A stretch of DNA of 57,098 nucleotides, taken from Leucothrix pacifica. GTDB taxonomy: Bacteria > Pseudomonadota > Gammaproteobacteria > Thiotrichales > Thiotrichaceae. A program made the translations under genes and the position numbers. Below, in pieces: positions 11,245-23,806 of the stretch (its first letter is position 1; the number at the start of each line of letters is the position of its first letter). Below the pieces are notes generated by a model. The model did no database searches. It was not told where the DNA came from and was given only the letters and a program-made list of their open reading frames with translations. The stretch is from NCBI RefSeq assembly GCF_003172875.1, contig NZ_QGKM01000005.1, positions 121,881 through 178,978 of the forward strand, given 5' to 3'.

Positions 11245-12786
11245 ATGAGCGAACGTAAGGGTAGACGTGGCGGTGGTGGCAGAAGCGGAAAACGCGCAGC
11301 TCGCCAGATTTCACAAACAAAACAAGCCGCTTACATCGAGCGCAATATCCCTTACTTTGAAGTCCTTGAAGAATCCGGACTAGCCCAGATCGAGTACAAT
11401 GCAGATACAGTATTGGAAGAGATCGGCATTGAGTTTCGTGATGACCCTGAAGCCTTGCAAATATTAAAAGATGCAGGCGCAGATGTACAAGGTGAATTGG
11501 TTCGTTTCCCACGCGGAATGTGTCGCTCCATTATTCAGGCCAGTGCGCCAAAAGAATTTACCCAGCATGCACGCAACCCCGAAAACAGCACCATCATCGG
11601 CGGAAAGCGAACCGTACTGGTACCAGCCTATGGCTCGCCTTTCGTGCGAGATCTGGACGGAGGCCGTCGTTATGCCACCATCGAAGACTTCCGGAATTTT
11701 GTAAAACTCGCCTACATGTCACCGGGATTACATCACTCTGGCGGAACCATCTGTGAGCCGGTTGACCTACCTGTCAACAAGCGTCATTTTGATATGATCT
11801 ATAGCCATATCAAATACAGCGACAAGCCATTTATGGGCTCGGTGACAGCTCCTGAGCGTGCCCAAGATACGGTCGATATGTGTAAGATCGTATTCGGTGA
11901 TGAATTCGTTGATAACAATGCTGTGACAGCGAGTCTGATCAACGCTAATTCACCCATGACATTTGACGACACCATGCTAGGTGCTGCAAAAGTCTATGCT
12001 CGTCATAACCAAGCCACTGTCGTTTCACCATTTATCTTAGCCGGTGCGATGTCGCCGGTCACTGTCGCCGGAACCGCCACTCAAATTCTGGCCGAAGCCC
12101 TTGCCGGCATGGCATTCGTGCAACTAGTGAATCCGGGCGCGCCTGTGGTATTTGGTACCTTCGCAGCGGCCGTTTCCATGCAAACTGGCGCACCAACTTT
12201 TGGTACTCCAGAACCTAGTTTGATTCTCTATACCGCAGCGGCACTGGCACGACGCTTAGGCGTTCCGTTCCGCAGCGGTGGTGGTTTAAATGCCTCTAAG
12301 ATTCCAGACGCTCAGGCAGCCTATGAGTCAGCCAACACCTTGCAAACTGCGGCACTGGCAGGTGTTAACTTTATGTTACACACCGCCGGTTGGTTAGAAG
12401 GTGGACTAGTCATGAGCTATGAGAAATTCATTCTGGATGCAGATCAGGCGAATATGATGCCGATTCTGCTCAAGGGTGTGGATATGAGTGAAAACGGTCA
12501 GGCGATGGACGCTATGCGTGAAACCGGTCCGGGTAATCACTTCCTTGGTGCCACCCATACACAGGCCAATTTTGAAACCGCCTTCTACCGCTCCACAATT
12601 GCCGATAACAATAGTTTCGAACAGTGGCAGGAAGATGGTGAACTAGATGCAACTCAACGCGCTAACAAGATATACAAGCAGATGCTGGCAGATTACGAAG
12701 CGCCTGCATTAGACCCTGCAATTGATGAAGCCTTGGTTGAATACATGGCAACCCGTAAAGCATCATTCCCTGACAAAGATTACTAA
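11245..12786 (+). CDS. MttB-family (non-pyrrolysine) corrinoid methyltransferase
   Basis: This 513-residue protein belongs to the trimethylamine methyltransferase MttB superfamily. Members move a methyl group from a methylated amine to a cognate corrinoid protein. Family blocks are seen near residue 270 (SPVTVAGTATQILAEALAG), 300-325 (an APTFGTPEPS motif) and 360-390. The frame is open with no internal TAG, so it is a non-pyrrolysine member. Characterised relatives such as MtgB demethylate glycine betaine, and others use carnitine or proline betaine. The substrate here is unknown, with glycine betaine the most natural guess. The N-terminus is unusual: residues 1-21 are Arg/Gly-rich (KGRRGGGGRSGKRAAR). 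It is the first gene of a nine-gene operon, with a GGAG site before the ATG. Confidence 0.92.
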   Translation: MSERKGRRGGGGRSGKRAARQISQTKQAAYIERNIPYFEVLEESGLAQIEYNADTVLEEIGIEFRDDPEALQILKDAGADVQGELVRFPRGMCRSIIQASAPKEFTQHARNPENSTIIGGKRTVLVPAYGSPFVRDLDGGRRYATIEDFRNFVKLAYMSPGLHHSGGTICEPVDLPVNKRHFDMIYSHIKYSDKPFMGSVTAPERAQDTVDMCKIVFGDEFVDNNAVTASLINANSPMTFDDTMLGAAKVYARHNQATVVSPFILAGAMSPVTVAGTATQILAEALAGMAFVQLVNPGAPVVFGTFAAAVSMQTGAPTFGTPEPSLILYTAAALARRLGVPFRSGGGLNASKIPDAQAAYESANTLQTAALAGVNFMLHTAGWLEGGLVMSYEKFILDADQANMMPILLKGVDMSENGQAMDAMRETGPGNHFLGATHTQANFETAFYRSTIADNNSFEQWQEDGELDATQRANKIYKQMLADYEAPALDPAIDEALVEYMATRKASFPDKDY

Positions 12787-12866
12787 GAAAGATGATTAAG
12801 TAAGGCTCACTAACCAGCCTTTAACCCTAACAATACACAAGCAACCCTGTGACTGAGGATAACAAT

Positions 12867-13565
12867 ATGAGTGAAGAGTACGATGACGAAGAAATCATCT
12901 TATCCGAATTGCCTGATGATGAACTGGTAGAGCAGATGCACGATGACCTCTATGACGGTCTGAAAGATGAGATTATCGAAGGCACTGAAATTCTGCTCTC
13001 ACGTGGCTGGTCTGCAGAGAAAGTATTATCAGAAGCACTGGTAGGTGGCATGACTATTGTCGGTATTGATTTCCGCGATGGCATTTTGTTTGTGCCCGAA
13101 GTGCTGTTAGCAGCCAATGCAATGAAGGGTGGGATGGGAATCCTTCGCCCGCTGCTAGCTGAAACTGGTGCTAAACCGATTGGTAAAATGGTCATTGGTA
13201 CCGTCAAAGGTGACATCCACGACATCGGAAAAAATCTGGTTGCCATGATGCTGGAAGGTGCAGGCTTCGAAGTAATTGATATTGGCATCAACAATTCTGT
13301 CGAAGAATATTTTGCTGCACTGGAAGAGCACAAGCCTGACGTATTAGGTATGTCTGCCCTGCTCACTACCACTATGCCGTATATGAAAGTAGTCATCGAT
13401 GCGATGACAGAAAAAGGCATTCGTGATGACTACATCGTATTAGTCGGTGGCGCACCACTCAATGAAGAGTTTGGTGAAGCCGTTGGCGCAACCGCTTATT
13501 GCCGGGATGCTGCAACCGCAGCAAGTACAGCCGTTGAACTCGTTGCACAAAAATACGCCGCATAG
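12867..13565 (+). CDS. corrinoid (B12-binding) methyl carrier protein, MtbC-like
   Basis: This is the cobalamin-carrying shuttle between the MttB-like enzyme and the methyl-THF methyltransferase, 232 residues from the ATG at 12867. An in-frame GTG at 12849 exists, but the GAGG motif sits correctly for the ATG. A helical cap domain (about 20-105) precedes a Rossmann-like B12 domain (about 107-232). The base-off signature GDIHDIGKN supplies H118 as lower cobalt ligand, and SALLTTTM and VGGAPL complete the site. The N-terminus is unusually acidic: 17 of the first 38 residues are Asp or Glu against one Lys. This contrasts with the Arg-rich tails of the enzymes it must meet. It is the second gene of the operon. 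Confidence 0.94.
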   Translation: MSEEYDDEEIILSELPDDELVEQMHDDLYDGLKDEIIEGTEILLSRGWSAEKVLSEALVGGMTIVGIDFRDGILFVPEVLLAANAMKGGMGILRPLLAETGAKPIGKMVIGTVKGDIHDIGKNLVAMMLEGAGFEVIDIGINNSVEEYFAALEEHKPDVLGMSALLTTTMPYMKVVIDAMTEKGIRDDYIVLVGGAPLNEEFGEAVGATAYCRDAATAASTAVELVAQKYAA

Positions 13566-14217
13566 TCAGGCGGAATTACTGACAGAGCCGCTACTGGTTA
13601 TTGCCTGTGGCGCTCTGGCCAGAGAGATTCAACAAATAAAATTGTTGAATGGCTGGCAACAACTCCGCATTCAGTGCCTGGATGCTGAGTTACACAATCG
13701 ACCGGAGAGGATATCAGGACAATTACGCAGCAAACTTGCTGAAGTCCGGGACGACTACCAACACATTTTCATCGCCTATGCAGATTGTGGCACCGGAGGT
13801 GAGATTGACCGGGTGATGGCCGAGTTCTCAACAACAGAACGCCCCATCGAGCGGTTACCCGGCGCACATTGTTATGCCTTCTTTGCAGGTCTTGAAGCAT
13901 TTGATCAGCTTGCAGAGGAAGCACTTGGGACATTTTATCTAACCGATTTTCTGGCCCAACATTTTGACCGATTAATTGTTCGCGGAATGAAGCTTGATAA
14001 GCATCCCGAGATCAAAACAATGATGTTTGGCAATTACACCCGACTGGTTTATTTGTCGCAAACACATAACGAAAAACTAGTCATCACAGCGCAACAGGCC
14101 GCGCAATATTTAGGTCTGGCATTTGAACAACGGCATACCGGATATGGTTTGCTGGAAAGTGGCCTTCAGGCCCAAGTTATCAACCAGGTTATCAACTTCC
14201 AACCCCAGAGGGTCTAG
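13507..14217 (+). CDS. DUF1638 family protein
   Basis: This is a DUF1638 protein, with core blocks LLVIACGALAREI, IFIAYADCGTGGEID, LPGAHCYAFFAG and an FDRLIVRGMKL segment. The invariant Cys residues in ACGALA, ADCGTGG and GAHCY could form a metal or thiol site. No biochemical function is established. The family recurs beside corrinoid methyltransferases, which suggests a role in methyl-group or cofactor handling. The start is uncertain: ATG at 13507 overlaps the corrinoid gene by 59 bases, while TTG codons at 13534 or 13543 would shorten the overlap. ATG at 13462 is less likely. None has a clear ribosome site, so translational coupling is probable. Confidence 0.82.
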   Translation: MLQPQQVQPLNSLHKNTPHSQAELLTEPLLVIACGALAREIQQIKLLNGWQQLRIQCLDAELHNRPERISGQLRSKLAEVRDDYQHIFIAYADCGTGGEIDRVMAEFSTTERPIERLPGAHCYAFFAGLEAFDQLAEEALGTFYLTDFLAQHFDRLIVRGMKLDKHPEIKTMMFGNYTRLVYLSQTHNEKLVITAQQAAQYLGLAFEQRHTGYGLLESGLQAQVINQVINFQPQRV

Positions 14218-14221
14218 ACTA

Positions 14222-14542
14222 ATGCCTCAGAAAATAGTCGTTTACTGGAGGGATATTCCCTCGCAGGTGCTCATAAAACGTGGCCGCAATAAGGGCAAAT
14301 GGATGCTGAGTGATCGCTTTCAGGAAGCCATCGACAGTGCAGCCATGAAGTCAGGCAAAGCCGGAACGGATGACTATGTCGCAGAATGGCGTCGTGTTAC
14401 TACGGAATGCGAAAGCAGTGATGACATTCAGGCACAAGCTCAGGCAGAGGCCAATCAATACGAGACTGATTATCCGGACGCTCGCCTAAAGATCATAGTT
14501 GATGCCGGTGGGATTGATAACACAGCACAGGAGGATGCCTGA
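14222..14542 (+). CDS. PF13769 'virulence factor' family small protein
   Basis: This 106-residue soluble protein matches the small family called virulence factor in Pfam (PF13769). It begins MPQKIVVYWRDIPSQV and contains WMLSDRFQEAIDSAAM and YVAEWRR. The family name is historical and says nothing about its function here. It lies between DUF1638 (gap of four bases) and a MetV-like gene (stop/start overlap TGATG), so it is an integral operon member. A role as an accessory subunit of the folate/corrinoid machinery is inference from context only. No membrane segment or signal is present. Confidence 0.8.
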   Translation: MPQKIVVYWRDIPSQVLIKRGRNKGKWMLSDRFQEAIDSAAMKSGKAGTDDYVAEWRRVTTECESSDDIQAQAQAEANQYETDYPDARLKIIVDAGGIDNTAQEDA

Positions 14543-15018
14543 TGTATTCCATGAGACGTTGGTCAGCCAAGCATGCTAACAAGCTGCACCATCTGTACAG
14601 CGGTGTAGAAAGCACTCTTTACAAAGCGGCCCCCCTGTTAGAAAAGATCGGTTATGACAAACTTGAAAAGCCGTTTATGGCGGTTGAGAAAGTCACTAAG
14701 GGCTTATTGTTTGATTCGCAATCCTGTGGCCAATGCACACTCGGTTCAACAGGCATGTCCTGCCCTATGAATTGCCCCAAAACCATTCGCAATGGTCCCT
14801 GTGGTGGTGTGCGCCCCAATGGCAAATGTGAGGTGAAGCCAGACATGGATTGTGTATGGGTTGTGGCATGGGAAGGCACTCAGAATATGCCTCCCAAAGA
14901 GCAAGCCATTCACATCGTTCAGCCAGCACTGGATTCCCGTAAAAAGGGAACCTCTGCCTGGTTACGTGAAGTCCGCCTGAAACGTCAGGAAAAAGCCAAA
15001 GCAAACGCCAGCCAATAA
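14542..15018 (+). CDS. MetV-like methylenetetrahydrofolate reductase C-terminal domain protein
   Basis: This is a 158-residue protein of the MTHFR_C / MetV-like family, the Cys-rich partner found beside short MetF proteins. Seven cysteines cluster at about residues 57-112 (CGQC, CPMNC, GPCGG, GKC, MDC). They could hold zinc or an iron-sulfur cluster. In acetogens MetV pairs with MetF and may link it to electron carriers other than NAD(P)H. Its presence next to metF implies a two-subunit reductase here as well. An AGGAGG ribosome site lies in the upstream gene and the start overlaps that gene's stop. Confidence 0.85.
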   Translation: MYSMRRWSAKHANKLHHLYSGVESTLYKAAPLLEKIGYDKLEKPFMAVEKVTKGLLFDSQSCGQCTLGSTGMSCPMNCPKTIRNGPCGGVRPNGKCEVKPDMDCVWVVAWEGTQNMPPKEQAIHIVQPALDSRKKGTSAWLREVRLKRQEKAKANASQ

Positions 15019-15041
15019 CCACCTGATCGGATGATTGTGTA

Positions 15042-16037
15042 ATGTATTTTGAAGACGAACCAAATCCGGGAGAAAATCTCCCCATTCTACCGGGTCATGT
15101 GTCAGCAGGACGATTTGAGCGGGTGCTGCGCGCTGGTCAATTTGCTGTCACTGCAGAAATTGCACCACCAGACTCTGCTGATCCGCAAGAAGTGTACGAC
15201 CGTGCCGAGGTATTTGATGGCTATGTGGATGCCATCAATGCAACCGATGGCTCCGGTGCTAACTGCCACATGTCCAGTGTTGCCATGTGCGCCCTGCTTG
15301 CTCATAAAGGCTACTCCATGATTATGCAGGTGTCTTGCCGTGATAGAAACCGCATTGCTATTCAAGGCGATGTATTGGGTGCATCCGCGATGGGGGTATC
15401 AAATATTTTGTGCCTGAGTGGTGACGGCGTTCAATCAGGCGATCACCCTGAAGCCAAACCAGTGTTTGATCTGGACTGCATGTCGTCGCTATCCATGCTC
15501 AAAGGCATGCGGGATCAAAAACAGTTTCTGAGTGGCCGCAAACTGACAAAGCCACCGGAAGTATTCTTAGGCGCTGCTGCCAATCCGTTCGCACCACCAT
15601 TTGACTACCGCCCTCACCGCTTAGCCAAAAAGGTAGCAGCGGGGGCGCAGTTCGTACAAACCCAGTACTGCTTTGACATTGAGATGCTGGAAAATTATAT
15701 GAAAAAAGTCGTGGATATGGGCTTGCATGAAAAAGTTTTTATCCTGCCCGGCGTTGGTCCACTAGCCTCTGCCCGAGCTGCCGAATGGATTCGTAGTAAT
15801 GTCGCCGGTGTGCATATTCCGGATGCGATCATTAAACGTTTAGCAGGCGCAGAAAACCAGAAACAGGAAGGTATCAATATCTGTACCGACATGATCAATG
15901 CCATCAAAGACATGCAAGGGGTACATGGTGTTCACATCATGGCGTATCGCATGGAATATGCGGTTGCTGAAATCGTAGAAAAATCAGGAGTACTCGGTAA
16001 CCGAAAACCGTGGTATCCCACACGCGACATCGCTTAA
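15042..16037 (+). CDS. methylenetetrahydrofolate reductase, MetF family
   Basis: This 331-residue flavoprotein interconverts 5-methyl-THF and 5,10-methylene-THF. The blocks VTAEIAPPDSADP near residue 35, INATDGSGANCHMSS near 65, ILCLSGDGVQSGDHPEA near 115 and FVQTQYCFD near 205 are those of the MTHFR barrel. In this operon it would probably run in the oxidative direction, feeding methyl carbons into the one-carbon pool. The Cys-rich MetV-like protein is encoded immediately upstream and is probably its partner. It is distinct from the usual biosynthetic MetF, whose gene is not in this window. Confidence 0.92.
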   Translation: MYFEDEPNPGENLPILPGHVSAGRFERVLRAGQFAVTAEIAPPDSADPQEVYDRAEVFDGYVDAINATDGSGANCHMSSVAMCALLAHKGYSMIMQVSCRDRNRIAIQGDVLGASAMGVSNILCLSGDGVQSGDHPEAKPVFDLDCMSSLSMLKGMRDQKQFLSGRKLTKPPEVFLGAAANPFAPPFDYRPHRLAKKVAAGAQFVQTQYCFDIEMLENYMKKVVDMGLHEKVFILPGVGPLASARAAEWIRSNVAGVHIPDAIIKRLAGAENQKQEGINICTDMINAIKDMQGVHGVHIMAYRMEYAVAEIVEKSGVLGNRKPWYPTRDIA

Positions 16038-16104
16038 CACCTTAATCTAGCAAGCTCTGACCAAGAGCATTAACCAAACAGCACAAGTTCGACCGGAGAA
16101 CATC

Positions 16105-17004
16105 ATGACTACAACTATCGTAACCTCACCCACCAAGGAAGTGAAAATTGGCTTCGACGAGCCATTCGTAATTATTGGTGAGCGCATTAACCCGACGGGC
16201 CGTAAAATTCTGGCCGAAGAAATGAAAAACGGTGACTACAGCCGTGTTGAAGCGGATGCACTGGCGCAGGTCGCAGCAGGCGCACACATGTTGGATATTA
16301 ATGCGGGTATACCATTAGCTGACGAACCTAAAATCCTAGCTGAAGTAATCCAGCTGGTTCAGTCATTTACCGATATACCACTATGTATTGACTCCTCAAT
16401 CATCGATGCACTGGAAGCAGGCTTATCGGTTTATCAAGGACGAGCGTTGGTTAACTCAGTAACTGGTGAGGACGAGTCACTGGATCGCGTATTGCCGTTA
16501 GTGGCTAAATACGACGCTTCAGTAGTGGCTATTTCAAATGACGAAACCGGCATTAGTGAAGACCCGGATGTACGTTTTGAAGTGGCTAAGAAAATCGTTG
16601 AGCGCGCCGCCGATTACGGTATCTCGCATGACCGTGTTGTGGTTGATCCTCTGGTGATGCCAATCGGTGCCATCAATAGTGCCGGTAAACAAGTACTGGC
16701 TTTGGTATCTCGCTTACGCAATGAATTAAAAGTGAATACCACCTGTGGCGCTTCCAATGTAAGCTTTGGCCTGCCCAACCGCAACGGCATCAACGGATCA
16801 TTCCTCAGTATGGCAATGGGTGCAGGCATGACCTCAGCCATCACTAGTCCGTTGCACCCTGAAGTGATTCAGGCGGTGATGGGCTCTGATGTCATGCTGG
16901 GACATGACCCGGATTGCGCCAACTGGATTCGTAAGTACCGTGAAGCCCCGGCAGAAGGTGCGCGCGGCACCCGTACTTCAGGTGGACGCCGCCGCCGTTC
17001 TTAA
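16105..17004 (+). CDS. methyltetrahydrofolate:corrinoid protein methyltransferase (MtgA-like)
   Basis: This 299-residue protein has the pterin-binding (dihydropteroate synthase-like) barrel that transfers methyl groups between corrinoid protein and tetrahydrofolate. The blocks FVIIGERINPTGRK near residue 20, MLDINAGIP near 62, PLCIDSSI near 90, VVVDPLVMPIGA near 178 and CGASNVSFGLPNR near 215 match MtgA/AcsE-type enzymes. It would take the methyl group loaded by the MttB-like enzyme and make 5-methyl-THF for MetF. The last 15 residues are a low-complexity basic tail ending GGRRRRS, absent from typical family members as I know them. It is the seventh gene of the operon. Confidence 0.93.
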   Translation: MTTTIVTSPTKEVKIGFDEPFVIIGERINPTGRKILAEEMKNGDYSRVEADALAQVAAGAHMLDINAGIPLADEPKILAEVIQLVQSFTDIPLCIDSSIIDALEAGLSVYQGRALVNSVTGEDESLDRVLPLVAKYDASVVAISNDETGISEDPDVRFEVAKKIVERAADYGISHDRVVVDPLVMPIGAINSAGKQVLALVSRLRNELKVNTTCGASNVSFGLPNRNGINGSFLSMAMGAGMTSAITSPLHPEVIQAVMGSDVMLGHDPDCANWIRKYREAPAEGARGTRTSGGRRRRS

Positions 17005-17029
17005 ATTTTAGCAACAGGAGATTTCCCCT

Positions 17030-19063
17030 TTGTCTCACGAAACCGCCAAAGTCGTTTTTATGCCCTCAGGGCGTCGTGGTCAGTTTTCGCTAGGAACGCC
17101 ACTGCTACAAATCGCCCAGAGCCTTGGAGTTGATATTGACTCCGTGTGTGGTGGTCGCGGCATATGTGGCCGCTGCCAGGTTGAGTGTGCGGAGGGTAAT
17201 TTTCAGAAACATCAGATTGTTTCCAGTAAATCTCATCTGAATGAGCTGACTGCGGCTGAAAAAAAATATTCCGAAAAACGCAAAGTACTTGCTGAAAACC
17301 GTCGCCTGAGTTGTCACACACTACTGCAAGGCGATGTGGTGATTGATGTACCGCCGGAAAGTCAGGTACACAAACAAATCGTGCGTAAAGAAGCAGACCT
17401 GCGCGATATCACACTCGATAGCACCATTAGCCTGCACTATATCGACGTCGAAGAAGCCGATATGCATAACCCCAAGGGCGACATGCAACGGCTGTGTGAA
17501 GCGCTTAAGCTGGAGTGGGAACTCAGCGATCTGGAGTTTGATTTAAACCTGCTGCAAAAACTGCAACCGATTCTGCGTGAAGGCGACTGGAAAGTGACCG
17601 CAGCGGTCTATGACGGTAAGCGCATTGTGGATGTATGGCCGGGCTTCAAAGAGAAAGTCTACGGTCTGGCCATTGATATCGGCTCTACCACCGTCGCTGC
17701 CCACCTCTGCGATTTGCATACCGGTGAAGTCCTTAACTCCGGTAGTTTAATGAATCCACAGATCCGTTTTGGTGAAGACCTGATGAGCCGCGTGTCATAT
17801 GTAATGATGCATCCGGAAGGCGCGGGCGAAATGACCGAAGCAATTCGTTCGGGACTCAATAAACTCATCGAACAAATTGTAGCCGAGATTGATATTCCAC
17901 TGGATGATGTCATGGAATTGGTCATGGTCGGCAACCCCATTATGCATCACATTTTGCTAGGCATTAATCCGGTCGAACTCGGTGGTGCACCGTTTGCCTT
18001 AGCCACCGACTCAGCAGTTCGCACCCGCGCCAGTGATATGGGTATAACCATCAATAGTGGCGGGATGATTTATGTACTGCCTTGTATCGCCGGTCATGTC
18101 GGAGCGGATGCGGCCGGTGTAGTGCTCTCTGAAGAACCACAACTACAAAATGAAATTACCCTGCTGGTCGATGTCGGCACCAATGCTGAAATCGTTCTGG
18201 GCAATAAAGACTGGCTCATGGCCTGCTCCAGTCCTACCGGCCCTGCATTTGAAGGTGCACAAATCAGCAGTGGCCAACGTGCCGCTCCGGGTGCAATAGA
18301 GCGGGTACGGATTGATCCGCTCACTAAAGAACCTCGTTTTCAGGTCATCGGCTCTGAGCTTTGGTCAAACGAAGCAGGCTTTGAAGAGTCCATCAAAAAA
18401 ATCGGTGTGAATGGTATTTGTGGCTCCGGCATTATTGAAGTAATCGCAGAAATGTATCTCGCGGGTATCATCAGTAAAGAAGGTGTGATCGATGGCGATT
18501 TAGCCACTATAAACCCACGGATTATTCCGAATGACCGCACCTTCTCGTATGTACTGTATGACGACGGCTCCGGCAGACCGGATCGGGTGATTTCTGTTAC
18601 CCAAAATGATGTCAGACAAATCCAACTTGGTAAGGCTGCGCTGTATGCAGGTGTTCGCTTGTTAATGGATAAAATGGGTGTGACACAGATCGACCGCATT
18701 CGTTTGGCTGGTGCGTTTGGTAGCCATATCGATGTAAAGCACGCCATGGTTTTGGGTTTAATTCCTGATTGTCCGCTGGACAATGTTGCTTCAGCCGGAA
18801 ATGCAGCAGGAACAGGTGCTCGCATCGCTTTGCTCAATAAAGCATCGCGCAATACCATCGAAACCGTCGTACGTAATATCGAGAAAATCGAAACTGCAGT
18901 AGAGCCAAAGTTTCAGGATTATTTCGTGGGCGCGATGGCTTTCCCACACGATACCGACCCATTCCCGAATTTATTTGCTGTCGTGACCAAGCCACCAGAA
19001 AAAGAAAAACGTGCTGAAGAACCTGTTGAAGGTAGTCGCCGACGCCGCCGTCGCAGGGGCTAA
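17030..19063 (+). CDS. ASKHA-domain ferredoxin-type corrinoid activation protein (RACE, DUF4445)
   Basis: This 677-residue protein would use ATP and a low-potential electron to return inactive Co(II) corrinoid to Co(I). The N-terminal [2Fe-2S] ferredoxin domain has ligands C40, C46, C49 and C95 (CGGRGICGRC and RLSCHTL). A linker region then leads to an ASKHA ATPase-like domain (about 205-640) with GLAIDIGSTTVAAHL, LLVDVGTNAEIVLG and CGSGIIE motifs. The start is TTG at 17030, supported by a CAGGAG site ten bases upstream; no ATG fits. The C-terminus ends in seven consecutive Arg followed by Gly, preceded by a Lys/Glu-rich stretch. It is the eighth gene of the operon. Confidence 0.93.
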   Translation: MSHETAKVVFMPSGRRGQFSLGTPLLQIAQSLGVDIDSVCGGRGICGRCQVECAEGNFQKHQIVSSKSHLNELTAAEKKYSEKRKVLAENRRLSCHTLLQGDVVIDVPPESQVHKQIVRKEADLRDITLDSTISLHYIDVEEADMHNPKGDMQRLCEALKLEWELSDLEFDLNLLQKLQPILREGDWKVTAAVYDGKRIVDVWPGFKEKVYGLAIDIGSTTVAAHLCDLHTGEVLNSGSLMNPQIRFGEDLMSRVSYVMMHPEGAGEMTEAIRSGLNKLIEQIVAEIDIPLDDVMELVMVGNPIMHHILLGINPVELGGAPFALATDSAVRTRASDMGITINSGGMIYVLPCIAGHVGADAAGVVLSEEPQLQNEITLLVDVGTNAEIVLGNKDWLMACSSPTGPAFEGAQISSGQRAAPGAIERVRIDPLTKEPRFQVIGSELWSNEAGFEESIKKIGVNGICGSGIIEVIAEMYLAGIISKEGVIDGDLATINPRIIPNDRTFSYVLYDDGSGRPDRVISVTQNDVRQIQLGKAALYAGVRLLMDKMGVTQIDRIRLAGAFGSHIDVKHAMVLGLIPDCPLDNVASAGNAAGTGARIALLNKASRNTIETVVRNIEKIETAVEPKFQDYFVGAMAFPHDTDPFPNLFAVVTKPPEKEKRAEEPVEGSRRRRRRRG

Positions 19064-19065
19064 GC

Positions 19066-21063
19066 ATGAGTAGTTACAATATCGGTATTGATACCGGCGG
19101 CACATACACCGATGCAGTGATTATCAACACTGCGACTCGCGAGCTGGTGGCTTCTGCAAAAGCGCTGACAACGCGCGGTGATTTATCCATTGGTGTGATC
19201 GAAGCGTTGAATAACGTGATGGCTACGACTAGAGGGCAACTCAGCGCTGCAGATATTTCACTGGTTTCACTCTCCACAACACTGGCTACCAATGCATTAG
19301 TTGAGGGCCAAGGCTCGAAAATTGGTGTGCTGCTGATTGGCTTTGACGATGTCATGCTGGAACGTAGCAACCTGGAAACAGCCATACCTAGTGCAATAAT
19401 TCAGCGTGTTAATGGCGGTCATACTCATGACGGCTCTGAAACAGTTGCACTTGATGAAGGCAGTATTCGTGACACTTTGGAGGCCAATAAAGACAAGGTC
19501 GGTGCTTATGCGGTGGCTGCTCATTACTCCGTTCGTAACCCTTCCCATGAGCGGAGGGCGCAAACATTAGTGCGTGAGATTATTGGCTGTCCGGTAACTG
19601 CCTCCTGCGATTTATCCGAAGCCTTGAACGGCCCACGGCGGGCACTCACTGCGGCATTCAATGCTCGCATCATTTCATTAATTGTGACGTTGGTGGATGC
19701 GGTACGGGATGCGTTGGGAGGTCACAATATCGACGCACCACTAATGATTGTCAAAGGTGATGGCTCTATTGCCAGTGCTGATACCGTGGTTGAAAAGCCG
19801 ATTGAAACTATTCTTTCCGGTCCGGCGGCCAGCGTGATTGGCGCTAACTTTTTATCCGGTGAAAGTGATTTCATCATTTCCGATATTGGCGGTACAACGA
19901 CTGATGTAGCTATCGTTAAAAATGGCTGGCCGGAGCTGAATGAAGCAGGTTCGGTGATTGGTGGTTTTCGTACCATGGTCAACGCCATTGATATGCAAAC
20001 CATCGGTTTAGGTGGCGACAGTGCGATTGAAATTGATCATCGTGGTCGTATTCACCTACAGGCAAATCGTGTGGTTCCACTGGCACTGCTGGGCCACCGC
20101 TGGCCATCAGTGATTAAGGACTTAAAACATAGTCTCAGTCAAGGCATGGGGCTTGGCGCTGCTACCATGTTCTTGCTACGGCCGGATGGCTTTGATCGCC
20201 ACCCTCTACCCGCTGATATTAGTGATGCAGACCGACAGTTTTTAAACATAATCACTAACGAACCGGTGCGATGGTCACAACTAGTGAATCGCGTCTCTGA
20301 TCGAAATCGAGTGACTCGTTTAGTGGATCGTGGCTTACTCCAAATCGGAGGATTTACCCCCAGCGATGCTGCGCATGTTCTGGATAGGCAATCACAATGG
20401 TCTCGCGAAGCGGCAGAATTAGTTTGCCTGATGATTGGTCGGTCGCACGGTAAAGTCAGCTATAACGATGCCAATATCGATATCGAGTGCCGCACCTTCG
20501 CACAGGAAGTGTTCGACGCCATGGTCGCCAAAAGCACTCACCTGTTACTTGAGCGATTAAGTGGTCATAGCTATCCGCAAGATGACCCGATTATCAGCAG
20601 CATCACGCACGGCAGCACACAGTTAGGAGACCTGAACTTAGCACTTACACCCCGCATTCCGCTGGTTGCTGTTGGTGGGCCGGCACAGGTCTTTTATGGT
20701 GATGTAGGCAGTCGCCTGGGAATTACTCCGATTACTCCCCAAGGCAGTGAAGTTGCTAATGCAATTGGTGCAGCAATTGGCATGATAAAGGCAAACGCCA
20801 CCGTTGAAATTAGTTCCGCAGAGCAAGGTGGTTACCGAATTCATCATGATGGAAAGCCAATATTTATCAGCTCACCCTCCGAAGCTTTAGAAAAAGCGAC
20901 AGCAATGGCTAAAGCAATAGCGACTGAAAAAGCTGAGGCGATGAGTGCGCAGAATCTGAGTATCAGTTCTGAGCTTGAGCGTTTAGACATACCGGGAATG
21001 GAGGGGGATGCAGGGCTTATTTCAGCAAAAATCACTGCGAATTGTCTTGGGTCAATAAAATAG
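19066..21063 (+). CDS. hydantoinase/oxoprolinase-family ASKHA protein
   Basis: This 665-residue protein of the hydantoinase A/oxoprolinase family starts two bases after the corrinoid activase gene. The first ASKHA phosphate loop (GIDTGGTYTDAVI) is at residue 6. A LSGPAASVIGA block lies near residue 255 and a second DIGGTTTDVAI loop near 275. The partner HyuB-type subunit is not encoded nearby. Without it, hydantoin or oxoproline hydrolysis is doubtful. Its position suggests an ATP-dependent role linked to corrinoid or methyl-donor metabolism, but this is inference. Unlike its neighbours it lacks an Arg-rich tail. It closes the nine-gene operon. Confidence 0.85.
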   Translation: MSSYNIGIDTGGTYTDAVIINTATRELVASAKALTTRGDLSIGVIEALNNVMATTRGQLSAADISLVSLSTTLATNALVEGQGSKIGVLLIGFDDVMLERSNLETAIPSAIIQRVNGGHTHDGSETVALDEGSIRDTLEANKDKVGAYAVAAHYSVRNPSHERRAQTLVREIIGCPVTASCDLSEALNGPRRALTAAFNARIISLIVTLVDAVRDALGGHNIDAPLMIVKGDGSIASADTVVEKPIETILSGPAASVIGANFLSGESDFIISDIGGTTTDVAIVKNGWPELNEAGSVIGGFRTMVNAIDMQTIGLGGDSAIEIDHRGRIHLQANRVVPLALLGHRWPSVIKDLKHSLSQGMGLGAATMFLLRPDGFDRHPLPADISDADRQFLNIITNEPVRWSQLVNRVSDRNRVTRLVDRGLLQIGGFTPSDAAHVLDRQSQWSREAAELVCLMIGRSHGKVSYNDANIDIECRTFAQEVFDAMVAKSTHLLLERLSGHSYPQDDPIISSITHGSTQLGDLNLALTPRIPLVAVGGPAQVFYGDVGSRLGITPITPQGSEVANAIGAAIGMIKANATVEISSAEQGGYRIHHDGKPIFISSPSEALEKATAMAKAIATEKAEAMSAQNLSISSELERLDIPGMEGDAGLISAKITANCLGSIK

Positions 21064-21151
21064 CAATTTGATTTGCTAGCATCTGCACATCGCACAATTT
21101 TGCTTTACAATGTGCGCATAACATTTCTAACAACAAAAGGAACCTACCCTC

Positions 21152-21535
21152 ATGAGTAGCTACCCAACCCTAGCGGAGATGGACATTAGCCGCGCTGGAG
21201 AAATCAGACATTATACGCTTCACCAAGAAGGCAAAGGTGACGTCCTGAAAATCTTCTACAAACGCAAAAAAGGTTCTTTTCTGCCTGAACGAAAAACCTT
21301 TAGATTTGGTCGCTCTGCAAAAATGATTGCTACCGGTGACAGAAACCAAGAGTCTCGCGAAGTTTATGAAATCTCGCCGTTCCTGCTCAAAGCCGTCTCT
21401 GAGTTAGATCGACTGTTAAAAGCTCAGGACTCTGTGGTCGATAAGAAGCAACACATTATCGATCGCATGGAGCAGATCGAACAAGAGATTAAATCTGCTC
21501 ACGAAGAAATGCGCAGCCTGCTAAAAGAGCTGTAA
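21152..21535 (+). CDS. DUF3461 (YaeH-like) protein
   Basis: This 127-residue soluble protein resembles the E. coli YaeH/DUF3461 family. Similarities are an opening of the type 'DISRAGEIRHYTLHQEG', then GDVLKIFYKRKKGSF, EVYEISPFLLKAVSELD, and a Gln/Glu/Lys-rich coiled-coil C-terminus (about 85-127). The function of the family is unknown. It lies 88 bases after the corrinoid operon and has its own AAAGGA ribosome site, so it may be transcribed separately. It converges with azlD, whose end overlaps it by 15 bases. Confidence 0.87.
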   Translation: MSSYPTLAEMDISRAGEIRHYTLHQEGKGDVLKIFYKRKKGSFLPERKTFRFGRSAKMIATGDRNQESREVYEISPFLLKAVSELDRLLKAQDSVVDKKQHIIDRMEQIEQEIKSAHEEMRSLLKEL

Positions 21536-21841
21536 GCGACACACAGAAAACGTCACTAAGCCAACCACAATAGTTAGCATCAGGTGACGACTCAGCAAGG
21601 CAGTGACAAAGGCAAGTACGGAGGCGATCAAATAATGATTCTCCGTACTCACCAATATTGCACCGTCGCGCACCAAACTCGCTTGTACAATAATCGCCGT
21701 CAGCACGGCAATTGGCACAAATTCTAAGGCCTGCACCAACAAAGGTGGAATATGGATTTTACCTGCCAATGCCAAAGGCAAATAACGTGGAATAAATGTT
21801 AGTGCTGTCATCGCGACAATCAACCACCAATAATCATTCAT
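21521..21841 (-). CDS. azlD: AzlD-like branched-chain amino-acid exporter subunit
   Basis: This 106-residue membrane protein is the small subunit of AzlCD-type amino-acid exporters. It has about four hydrophobic helices and the family features FIPRYLPLALAG near residue 18 and VPIAVLTAIIVQA near 45. It follows azlC with an eight-base overlap, the standard arrangement. Its stop codon lies within the 3' end of the convergent DUF3461 gene. Confidence 0.9.
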   Translation of the reverse strand: MNDYWWLIVAMTALTFIPRYLPLALAGKIHIPPLLVQALEFVPIAVLTAIIVQASLVRDGAILVSTENHYLIASVLAFVTALLSRHLMLTIVVGLVTFSVCRLQLF

Positions 21842-22568
21842 GAATTGCCCTCCGCTCTGCAGTGTTTTGCTGCTGTTTTAGTACAATAATTCCCACCACA
21901 ATAGCCATCACCGATGAGAACAATAAACCGGTTTGATGCGGCCAGTCGTAAGTCAGCAAGATGCAAACCGCCGAAGTGACAGCGCAAGCCCAATGCGCGG
22001 TATGCTGCAAGGACGGCACCACAATACCGATAAAGGCCACCACCATCGCTACATCCAGCCCCCAGTTTGTCATATCCGGTACTTTTTCCCCGACAGTAAT
22101 ACCAATCCAAGTACACAGCTGCCAGTTCAGATACATAATCAGCGCTGCGCCAATGTAATAGGAATAAAACCCTTTGCCATCATCGAGCTTTGCACGCAAC
22201 CGATTGGCTACCACTGCATAGGCCTCATCCGTCAACCAAAAAGCCATTGGTACCCGTAATAAGGCAGGTATTTTTTCAGCCACAGGCATTAGGCTGGCGG
22301 CATATAACATATGACGAAGGTTGACGATAAACACAGTCATCGCAATCACTGGCAATGCAGCAGCACTGGCCAATAATGTTACTGCAATAAACTGCGAAGA
22401 CCCGGCAAAGACAAATAGCGACATACCCATCGCTTCCCAGTGAGTCAGGCCCAGAGACTGTGCCATCGCACCGTATACAATACCGAACGGAATAGCTGCC
22501 AGAATTAGTGGTAAAATATCCCTCGCCCCGCGTATAAACAGGCCTCCATCAAAGCGTTTGCCCGACAT
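21834..22568 (-). CDS. azlC: AzlC-like branched-chain amino-acid exporter subunit
   Basis: This is the large subunit of an AzlCD exporter for branched-chain or related amino acids, 244 residues from the ATG at 22568. A GAGGGGAAAG ribosome site lies directly before this ATG, so the GTG at 22586 is rejected. Family blocks are IPFGIVYGAMAQSLGL near residue 30, FAGSSQFIAVTLL near 55 and LRHMLYAASL near 85. About six or seven helices are visible. Together with azlD it forms a two-gene unit facing away from the next gene cluster. Confidence 0.92.
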   Translation of the reverse strand: MSGKRFDGGLFIRGARDILPLILAAIPFGIVYGAMAQSLGLTHWEAMGMSLFVFAGSSQFIAVTLLASAAALPVIAMTVFIVNLRHMLYAASLMPVAEKIPALLRVPMAFWLTDEAYAVVANRLRAKLDDGKGFYSYYIGAALIMYLNWQLCTWIGITVGEKVPDMTNWGLDVAMVVAFIGIVVPSLQHTAHWACAVTSAVCILLTYDWPHQTGLLFSSVMAIVVGIIVLKQQQNTAERRAIHE

Positions 22569-22750
22569 CTTTCCCCTCACCCGCACAATATAAAACAGGT
22601 CGCAATATTAGCGTGATGCACTGAGCAGGTCACGAAATTCCTGTTTATAACAAGCCATCGACAAAACAACTGTAAAGCCATGTAAAACCACCTTGTTATC
22701 GGTGTGACATCACGCTAGAGTTCAGAAAAATACTCTGTTTAGGAATAACC

Positions 22751-23806
22751 ATGTCTGACTGTCTTCGAGAATTATTAAAAACACGCCCCTATCTGTTAGC
22801 CGATGGTGCTACCGGTACAAACTTATTCGCTATGGGGCTACAAACCGGTGATTCTCCGGAGCTGTGGAATGTGGATCACCCAGACCGGATCGCCGCTAAT
22901 TATAATAGCTTCATTGAAGCAGGCTCAGACATCGTGCTCACCAACACATTCGGTGGCACTAGCTTTCGCTTAAAGCTGCATGACGCTCAGGACCGTGTTA
23001 CCGAGCTTAATCACGCCGGTGCTAAAGTGGCCCGTGAATGTGCCGATGCCGCTGATCATACAGTATTGGTCGCAGGCTCAATGGGGCCCACCGGTGAATT
23101 AATGGAACCAATGGGTGCACTCACCAAAGAATCAGCGGTTGCGGCCTTTGCCGAGCAGGCACAAGCCTTGGCTGATGGCGGTGCAGATCTGCTTTGGATC
23201 GAGACCATGTCTTCCATCGAGGAAGTTGAAGCCGCTCTGGAAGGCGCCGCAACAACCGGTTTACCTGCTGTCACGACTATTAGTTTTGATATTAATGGGC
23301 GCTCCATGATGGGCGTCACCCCAGCTGATCTAGTAAATCTGTATGAAAACTCAGAACATCCGCCTGTTGCCTGTGGTTCTAACTGCGGTGTTGGTGCTTC
23401 CGAGTTAGTCGTCGCCATTTTAAATATGGGCAACGCGTCAGACAAAGAAGAGAATATATACGTCGCCAAAGCAAACTGCGGCATCCCTGAATACGTTGAG
23501 GGTAAAATCCATTACAACGGTACGCCCGAAATTATGGCGGAATACGTGCGTATGGCCATTGATTCAGGGGCAAAAATTATCGGCGGCTGCTGTGGTACCA
23601 CACCGGAGCATATTCGTGCGATGCGTGAAGCGCTGGATAATCACATCAAAGGTGACAAACCAACGATTGAAGAGGTCGAAACACGTTTGGGAGAAGTCTC
23701 TACAGGTGCTAAAGCGCAAAACCGTGGTGACATGAGCGTATTAGATGGTGCTGTTTCCGGCGGTAATGGCGCCCCTCGCAAGGAGCGTCGTCGCAGACGC
23801 GGATAA
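22751..23806 (+). CDS. betaine/homocysteine S-methyltransferase-like protein with Arg tail
   Basis: This 351-residue protein has the zinc-dependent homocysteine S-methyltransferase barrel. The substrate loop DGATGTNLFAMG is near residue 20, and the zinc ligands are in GSNCGVG (about C217) and the paired cysteines of IIGGCCGTTPEH (about 280). It resembles BHMT/MtvA-type enzymes, which take methyl groups from betaines or methylated corrinoids. The domain is complete but is followed by about 50 extra residues ending in KERRRRRG, a basic tail like those of three proteins in the corrinoid operon. That suggests it belongs functionally with that operon although it stands 1.7 kb away behind azlCD. 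The gene starts a short unit with the PhoD-like gene. Confidence 0.85.
   Translation: MSDCLRELLKTRPYLLADGATGTNLFAMGLQTGDSPELWNVDHPDRIAANYNSFIEAGSDIVLTNTFGGTSFRLKLHDAQDRVTELNHAGAKVARECADAADHTVLVAGSMGPTGELMEPMGALTKESAVAAFAEQAQALADGGADLLWIETMSSIEEVEAALEGAATTGLPAVTTISFDINGRSMMGVTPADLVNLYENSEHPPVACGSNCGVGASELVVAILNMGNASDKEENIYVAKANCGIPEYVEGKIHYNGTPEIMAEYVRMAIDSGAKIIGGCCGTTPEHIRAMREALDNHIKGDKPTIEEVETRLGEVSTGAKAQNRGDMSVLDGAVSGGNGAPRKERRRRRG

Follow-up and report, generated by a model that had tools for sequence, protein, structure and literature searches.

Oppositely charged ends on a shared corrinoid carrier and its proposed methyl-transfer partners in Leucothrix pacifica and other bacteria

It has long been asked, mainly for the fused methionine synthase MetH, how one B12 carrier can serve several enzymes by turns. 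The question also concerns a gene cluster in a 57,098-nucleotide stretch of the Leucothrix pacifica genome (contig NZ_QGKM01000005.1, positions 121,881 to 178,978; the whole stretch is called the window here). By its gene set, the cluster matches an aerobic glycine-betaine demethylase and split methionine synthase, MtgBCDE, with a RACo-like activase. Its MttB-like, corrinoid, pterin, homocysteine and activase proteins are encoded by separate genes, and all five have Pfam matches. Four of them carry an Arg-rich end, and the fifth, the corrinoid protein MtgC, carries an acidic one. We propose, with a probability of about 0.6, that these disordered charged ends tether the client enzymes to MtgC as their shared carrier, and thereby replace the covalent linkers of MetH.

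Charged ends outside the catalytic domains

The charged ends lie at the following positions of the window.

11245..11331, + strand: Arg/Gly-rich N-terminal extension of the MttB-like protein, residues 1-29, net charge +8
12867..12929, + strand: acidic N-terminal extension of MtgC, residues 7-27, net charge -10
16945..17001, + strand: Arg-rich C-terminal tail of the methyltransferase MtgD, residues 281-299, net charge +5
18968..19060, + strand: Arg-rich C-terminal tail of the activase, residues 647-677, net charge +6, predicted to be disordered
23645..23803, + strand: C-terminal extension of the BHMT-like protein MtgE, residues 299-351 (53 residues), net charge +4

The MttB-like protein begins with MSERKGRRGGGGRSGKRAARQ, MtgD ends in GGRRRRS, the activase in RRRRRRRG (seven Arg) and MtgE in KERRRRRG; each Arg-rich end of the window holds 6-8 Arg. 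The C-terminus of the neighboring MetV is also basic (net +6), but Lys-rich. A sequence-only reading of the window had noticed the same four Arg-rich ends, and all of them are present. Its description of the corrinoid protein as acidic at the start also stands, but its count of 17 Asp/Glu and one Lys in the first 38 residues fits the first 40; read from the GTG codon, the first 38 contain 16 Asp/Glu and no Lys or Arg. The true start of MtgC is probably the ATG at 12867 (residue 7) rather than the GTG at 12849, because the residue-7 column of 76 MtgC-type proteins consists of start codons (Met 72, Val 3, Leu 1) and because GAGGA, a good ribosome-binding site, lies upstream of this ATG. The extension has Asp/Glu at position 15 in 74 of these 76 proteins and is closed by a motif of L18, L21 and L26, followed by Q29, that is kept in all 76.

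The ends begin where homology to solved structures stops. The alignment of the activase with 3zyy, the activase RACo, stops at residue 646, and those of MtgD with its best solved relatives (2yci, a CH3-tetrahydrofolate:corrinoid/iron-sulfur protein methyltransferase) at residue 280. The MttB-like protein aligns with 2qne only from residue 29, MtgC aligns with the corrinoid protein 1y80 from residue 28, and the homocysteine module of MetH-type chains reaches to about residue 298 of MtgE. The proteins of 2qne, 2yci, 3zyy and 1y80 are of the anaerobe type; their catalytic domains are homologous to those of the window and they differ where the tails or the extension begin. The structure 2qne is described as an MtgB in PMC9842639. 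Another solved MttB relative, 4yyc, which matches a Sinorhizobium meliloti protein, does bear an Arg-rich N-terminal extension. AlphaFold2 placed residues 1-17 of MtgC and 650-677 of the activase outside any structure, with a predicted local distance difference test score below 50 at residues 8-12 and 661-674, respectively.

Co-occurrence across genomes

Alignment across genomes had been set as the test of whether Arg tails and the acidic extension occur together, and the outcome was positive. Among 274 genomes of the class (that of the window included), 14 others held a close methyltransferase orthologue (at least 63% identity). At these 14 loci the methyltransferase was Arg-tailed in 14/14, the activase in 13/13 found, and MtgC was acidic in 13/13 found. 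A second set consisted of the best 80 loci from a scan of named genomes, which by record title belong to Gamma-, Alpha- and Betaproteobacteria, Actinomycetota and Chloroflexota. Here 79 of the 80 methyltransferases had at least 4 Arg in the last 20 residues, and the remaining one (L125) had its Arg block further in, a placement found in L188 and L204/L125 (one genome). The activase was tailed in 65 of 67 read and the corrinoid protein acidic in 64 of 65 read. Tails were present in S. meliloti pSymB, Azoarcus KH32C and Paracoccus aminovorans, and absent from the haloarchaeon Halomicrococcus and from Acetoanaerobium, both with distant activases.

The tails are largely confined to particular families. 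When at least 5 Arg in the last 20 residues were counted over both sets (94 loci) and the window, the activases (68/71) and methyltransferases (60/61) were nearly all tailed, in contrast to 75/949 other open reading frames, many of them probably spurious. The counts were 0/46 for DUF1638, 0/40 for Virulence_fact and 0/4 for hydantoinase-like proteins, 1/32 for MetF and 1/23 for MetV. The earlier remark that MetF, DUF1638 and the hydantoinase-like protein lack tails was thus borne out in the window and over related loci. Only one of 47 neighbor families found in at least 4 loci had a tailed majority; its 5 members have 4-6 Arg near the C-terminus and a membrane-like look. A search for MtgE covered 40 genomes of the second set, and an MtgE-like protein scoring above 230 bits was found in 24. 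At least 5 Arg occurred in the last 30 residues of 19 of these; L131 and L145 have 4, and L143 has 3 Arg with 5 Lys.

An even sample gave the same picture. The activase of locus L320 (described below) was used to search an even draw of 398 genomes from Pseudomonadota, and 52 activase loci were taken, namely the full- and half-length matches listed minus the two of the query genome itself; the remaining matches seen were either fragments of these same genes or hits to ferredoxin domains. Among the matches listed, at least 5 Arg in the last 24 residues were found in 41/41 activases of the window type and in 0/11 other activases. The accompanying methyltransferases (28/28), MtgE (2/2) and MttB proteins (11/11) were tailed, and 14 MtgC proteins had 7-13 Asp/Glu and 0-2 Lys/Arg in 30 residues. 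Of these 41 listed matches, 13 were activases that kept the tail although neither an MtgC nor an MtgD gene lay in the stretch read with them, of up to 20 kb.

The corrinoid protein follows the tails. At 93 loci with a corrinoid protein, the MtgC type was acidic in 82/82 (80 distinct), versus 0/11 other corrinoid proteins. The tail states of activase and methyltransferase agreed in 87 of 91 loci having both, and an acidic MtgC was present in 20/20 genomes chosen for tailed systems. Pseudomonadota and Chloroflexota supplied both tailed systems and tail-less controls, and Actinomycetota supplied tailed systems. The pattern is found and conserved in many oxygen-tolerant bacteria, and the related tail-less systems examined do not have it.

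The Chloroflexota controls came from a survey of 201 genomes, of which 77 had a match and 40 loci were fetched. Five loci were of the tailed type (L188-L191 and L204, where the contig ends within the activase). In the remaining 35, none of the 34 activases read was truly tailed, the methyltransferase tail was absent even at 53-56% identity (L215-L218, L220), and the corrinoid proteins read had no acidic extension. Two candidates were rejected: the reading of L195 as tailed had run past a stop, and the methyltransferase of L210 met a crude rule only by scattered Arg in its core. In one Chloroflexota genome (G497; loci L191, L195, L284-L288, L300), there were 5 matches to activases, 10 to corrinoid proteins and 10 to MttB. 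Nine of its corrinoid proteins were read, and only one has the acidic extension; this one adjoins an Arg-tailed MttB. The genome thus provides its own natural control, with the reservation that further MttB proteins in it are also Arg-rich in some cases. Fused MetH had no Arg C-terminus in 7/7 read of 8 MetH stretches, the genome of the window included. A second system in an otherwise tailed genome (L322, G307) has neither feature. Tails without an acidic corrinoid protein, named beforehand as the refuting case, were not found in the genomes compared; the only case that looked like a genuine exception (L110) has another MtgC in the same genome (L243), which is acidic.

Proposed docking on MtgC and its alternatives

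Tethering to MtgC is favored because four non-homologous families with one proposed partner are tagged, while other cluster proteins almost never are. The four tagged proteins are alike in that each must meet the cobalamin of MtgC, which makes MtgC their common factor. The distribution noted earlier, docking enzymes plus the BHMT-like protein, also held, but the latter is no outlier: as MtgE, it too is proposed to be served by MtgC in the main texts of PMC12478193 and PMC5764234.

In the proposed mechanism, MtgC would be the one carrier, with MtgB, MtgD, MtgE and the RACo-like activase as its clients. By the roles given in PMC12478193 and PMC5764234, together with family knowledge, MtgB would demethylate a methylated amine onto MtgC, MtgD would move the methyl group between MtgC and tetrahydrofolate, MtgE would make methionine, and the activase would re-reduce the cobalt of MtgC. 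What MetH secures on a single chain, the split system would hold by charge: the disordered Arg-rich ends of the clients would be drawn to the acidic disordered N-terminus of MtgC, and a weak, exchangeable attraction would let them stay near MtgC and take turns, so that the encounter rate goes up. Such binding between the tails and MtgC may raise transfer rates or choose partners, and the invariant Leu motif of MtgC may join the contact. If this is true, the tail would be a sequence tag by which more clients could be traced among MttB and URO-D proteins that lack an assignment, and complementary charged tails would offer a simple design rule for methyl-transfer cascades. The MtgBCDE system is described as highly expressed across the ocean (PMC12478193).

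Arg-rich ends in general resemble RNA- and lipid-binding segments. The tails might thus bind another polyanion (mRNA, DNA, polyphosphate or membrane phospholipid) and localize the enzymes, with the acidic end of MtgC being unrelated or serving against sticking. We consider this distinctly improbable, since it leaves unexplained the tagging of exactly the proposed MtgC partners, the near-absence of tails on MetF, MetV and DUF1638, and the coming and going of the MtgC extension with the tails. Another possibility would be binding to the polyglutamate chains of folate, which would concentrate one-carbon substrates. MtgD uses folate and polyglutamates are polyanions, but MetF, a folate enzyme of the same cluster, is tail-less in 31/32, and the tailed MtgB, activase and MtgE are not known as folate users; such a role seems very improbable indeed. 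RNA, membrane and polyglutamate binding all appear to fit the distribution worse than docking on MtgC does.

The composition of the tails bears on how docking might work. The Arg share of Arg plus Lys is 0.82-0.95 in the tails versus 0.61-0.72 in the protein bodies at all guanine-cytosine (GC) levels (95 loci), which argues for a contact richer than bare charge. Chance or composition as the source of the tails was ruled out by this GC-independent preference and the family-specific counts. The Arg codons are a mixture of CGN and AGR, so that the tails are not a DNA repeat; with tails on dispersed genes, the mixed codons also ruled out a local DNA effect. The use of Arg rather than Lys, often with Gly between, is what would be expected if the charged ends co-condensed MtgC and its clients into a methyl-transfer body instead of docking pairwise. 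Several clients facing one oppositely charged carrier would suit this explanation, and Arg-rich proteins are described as phase-separating more readily than Lys-rich ones (PMC9705477). On the other hand, the Arg-rich ends of the window are short, and MtgC has one acidic stretch; we regard a condensate as unlikely. The two would look alike in sequence data, and of the original suggestion of electrostatic docking or a condensate it is the co-occurrence pattern that stands, with docking as what we infer from it.

The histories of the features were compared on trees. The activase needed 2 changes of state, MtgD and the MtgC extension 3 each, and MttB 6, and some of these changes are label noise: four proteins with an acidic extension (L077, L088, L245, L247) were scored negative by the strict pattern on the MtgC tree, and the N-terminal MttB label (at least 5 Arg in 36 residues) takes in borderline G497 sequences (L301, one of L284) that are not tail-like. 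After phylogenetic contrasts over 65 taxa, the acidic charge of MtgC correlated with the basic charge of MtgD (r 0.30-0.38, p 0.017-0.0016, uncorrected for the several charge-contrast tests run).

The end that carries the tail is not fixed. Among 94 distinct MttB-family proteins, 83 have an Arg-rich N-terminus and 4 an Arg-rich C-terminus instead; the MttB of L043 is a fragment and the MttB N-terminus in L079 is weak. The C-tailed set forms a single branch (Shimodaira-Hasegawa-like approximate likelihood ratio test, SH-aLRT, 100). MttB paralogues of this kind (L298, L079, L081, L097) start with MRP(S/T/Q)L without an N-terminal Arg stretch, and their C-terminal tails resemble GRRGRRGRRRRG. A relative in an untailed Chloroflexota locus (L222) is tail-less.

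Two further corrinoid systems with URO-D-family enzymes are encoded on an Arenicellales chromosome (G299), at L321 7201-9482 and L320 3670-8609. In L321, the URO-D enzyme ends in ARKRRRRPKRR and the adjoining corrinoid protein has 15 Asp/Glu and 3 Lys/Arg in 40 residues. In L320, the last 25 residues hold 12 Lys/Arg in the activase and 9 in the pterin methyltransferase, and the corrinoid protein has 14 Asp/Glu and 1 Lys/Arg in 40 residues. Both acidic corrinoid N-termini are unrelated in sequence to the MtgC extension. No protein in 321 genomes of the class matched the L321 URO-D enzyme over a long stretch at more than 33% identity, and the L320 activase had no full-length relative above 37% among the matches listed from the 398 phylum genomes. 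By sequence, independence comes from the different folds of the tagged families and the MttB clade tailed at its C-terminus; it may also come from these two systems.

Few changes per tree would also be expected if the tails and the extension arose early and hitch-hiked with a spreading gene set as an inherited side effect of little function. Unselected disordered ends drift fast, however, and the tail was kept in all 41 window-type activases among the even-sample matches listed. The genes are often dispersed, one MttB clade is tailed at the other end, and a similar pattern occurs in other systems. We therefore hold this explanation to be decidedly improbable.

Several observations weigh against tethering by charged ends. 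The small number of tree changes means that co-occurrence in many genomes represents few events and long retention, not many origins. After contrasts, the relation between the charge of MtgC and the activase tail was not significant (r 0.17, p 0.17). In L114 the activase has a degenerate tail, in L127 one rich in Lys, and a second system in G301 (L323) is mixed, with a methyltransferase ending in RRRKR and a tail-less activase. Two Chloroflexota MtgE (L149, L151) are tail-less although their genomes hold a tailed MtgD. The invariant Leu of the MtgC extension indicates that charge alone is not what is conserved. The L320 URO-D enzyme is tail-less; moreover, the L320 activase is nearest to the tailed activases (34-37% identity among the matches listed), so that its tail may be inherited rather than a second origin. 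Finally, Bmt (MtgE) of Phaeobacter is active alone in vitro (PMC12366255).

It is possible that tethering to MtgC is one instance of a general assembly code, in which an acidic, disordered carrier end and Arg-rich ends on any number of unrelated clients form a methyl hub for plug-in partners in place of covalent linkers. It would have had at least two origins, one of them in a URO-D-type corrinoid system. A genome with ten MttB-family matches and the occurrence of tails at either end are consistent with such a code, which we put forward tentatively, at somewhat less than even odds.

The gene cluster and known systems

The protein families of the window were assigned by Pfam and NCBIfam profile searches. 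All genes are on the + strand.

11245..12786, +: MttB-superfamily methyltransferase (MtgB-like), 513 aa; PF06253, E 7.7e-230
12849..13565, +: corrinoid protein MtgC (start likelier ATG 12867); PF02607 and PF02310
13447..14217, +: DUF1638 protein without tail; PF07796; the given start overlaps MtgC and is probably too early
14123..14542, +: Virulence_fact-domain protein without tail; PF13769
14542..15018, +: MetV-like protein without Arg tail; PF12225
15042..16037, +: MetF-like methylene-tetrahydrofolate reductase without tail; PF02219
16105..17004, +: CH3-tetrahydrofolate:corrinoid methyltransferase (MtgD); PF00809; NCBIfam NF005719 above cut-off
17030..19063, +: RACo/RamA-like reductive activase; PF14574, PF17651, PF17650
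19066..21063, +: hydantoinase-like protein without tail; PF05378, PF01968
22751..23806, +: BHMT-like homocysteine methyltransferase (MtgE), past a gap; PF02574; NCBIfam NF005718 above cut-off

The window MtgC scored below the NCBIfam glycine-betaine MtgC cut-offs (NF047995, 155.8 of 310 bits; NF047996, 194.7 of 370), and the MttB-like protein below the equivalog cut-off of TIGR02369, trimethylamine methyltransferase MttB (267 of 525 bits). MtgC is 64-82% identical to MtgC-type proteins at other loci.

The enzymes themselves are already known. An aerobic MtgBCDE has been described in Ruegeria pomeroyi (PMC12478193) and a split methionine synthase in Phaeobacter inhibens (PMC5764234). The families are alike as described (MttB-like, corrinoid, pterin, homocysteine, RamA-like and DUF1638). 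In the R. pomeroyi account, MtgE serves as the methionine module, re-reduction of cobalamin is the predicted role of RamA and DUF1638, and MtgBCDE-type genes are frequently colocated in other bacteria (PMC12478193); S. meliloti, listed there as an MtgBCDE holder, has the same cluster type as the window. The charged ends are unmentioned in the main texts of PMC12478193 and PMC5764234, and terms for tails are absent from the main text of PMC12366255. No report of the tails was found in the literature searched, a scope outside which lay supplements, preprints and most subscription papers. Within that literature, the charged tails are apparently a new assembly feature.

MetH has the same homocysteine, folate and cobalamin modules as the MtgCDE half of the system and functions in a similar way, but differs by its fused chain and the lack of an Arg C-terminus. 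Since a fused MetH is also encoded in the genome of the window (L311, contig C125), besides the unfused modules with MtgE, the split system is probably not its sole methionine synthase. A precedent, by analogy, for a corrinoid N-terminal extension in docking is MtaC of the methanol:corrinoid methyltransferase, whose extra N-terminal domain fits a groove between MtaB subunits (PMC9842639); as described there, that domain is not an acidic disordered segment opposite Arg tails. A phmmer comparison aligned MtgC residues 14-233 with MtaC 27-243. Within this alignment, LPDDEL in MtgC residues 14-26 (12888-12926) falls on YPKDEL near the MtaC N-terminus, a weak match that could be homologous.

Other MttB-like pieces occur in the genome of the window on contigs C71 and C123 (L302, L303). 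Those on C123 are interrupted, and one of them starts with MSSKPRRRRKMSPREAMHAKR.

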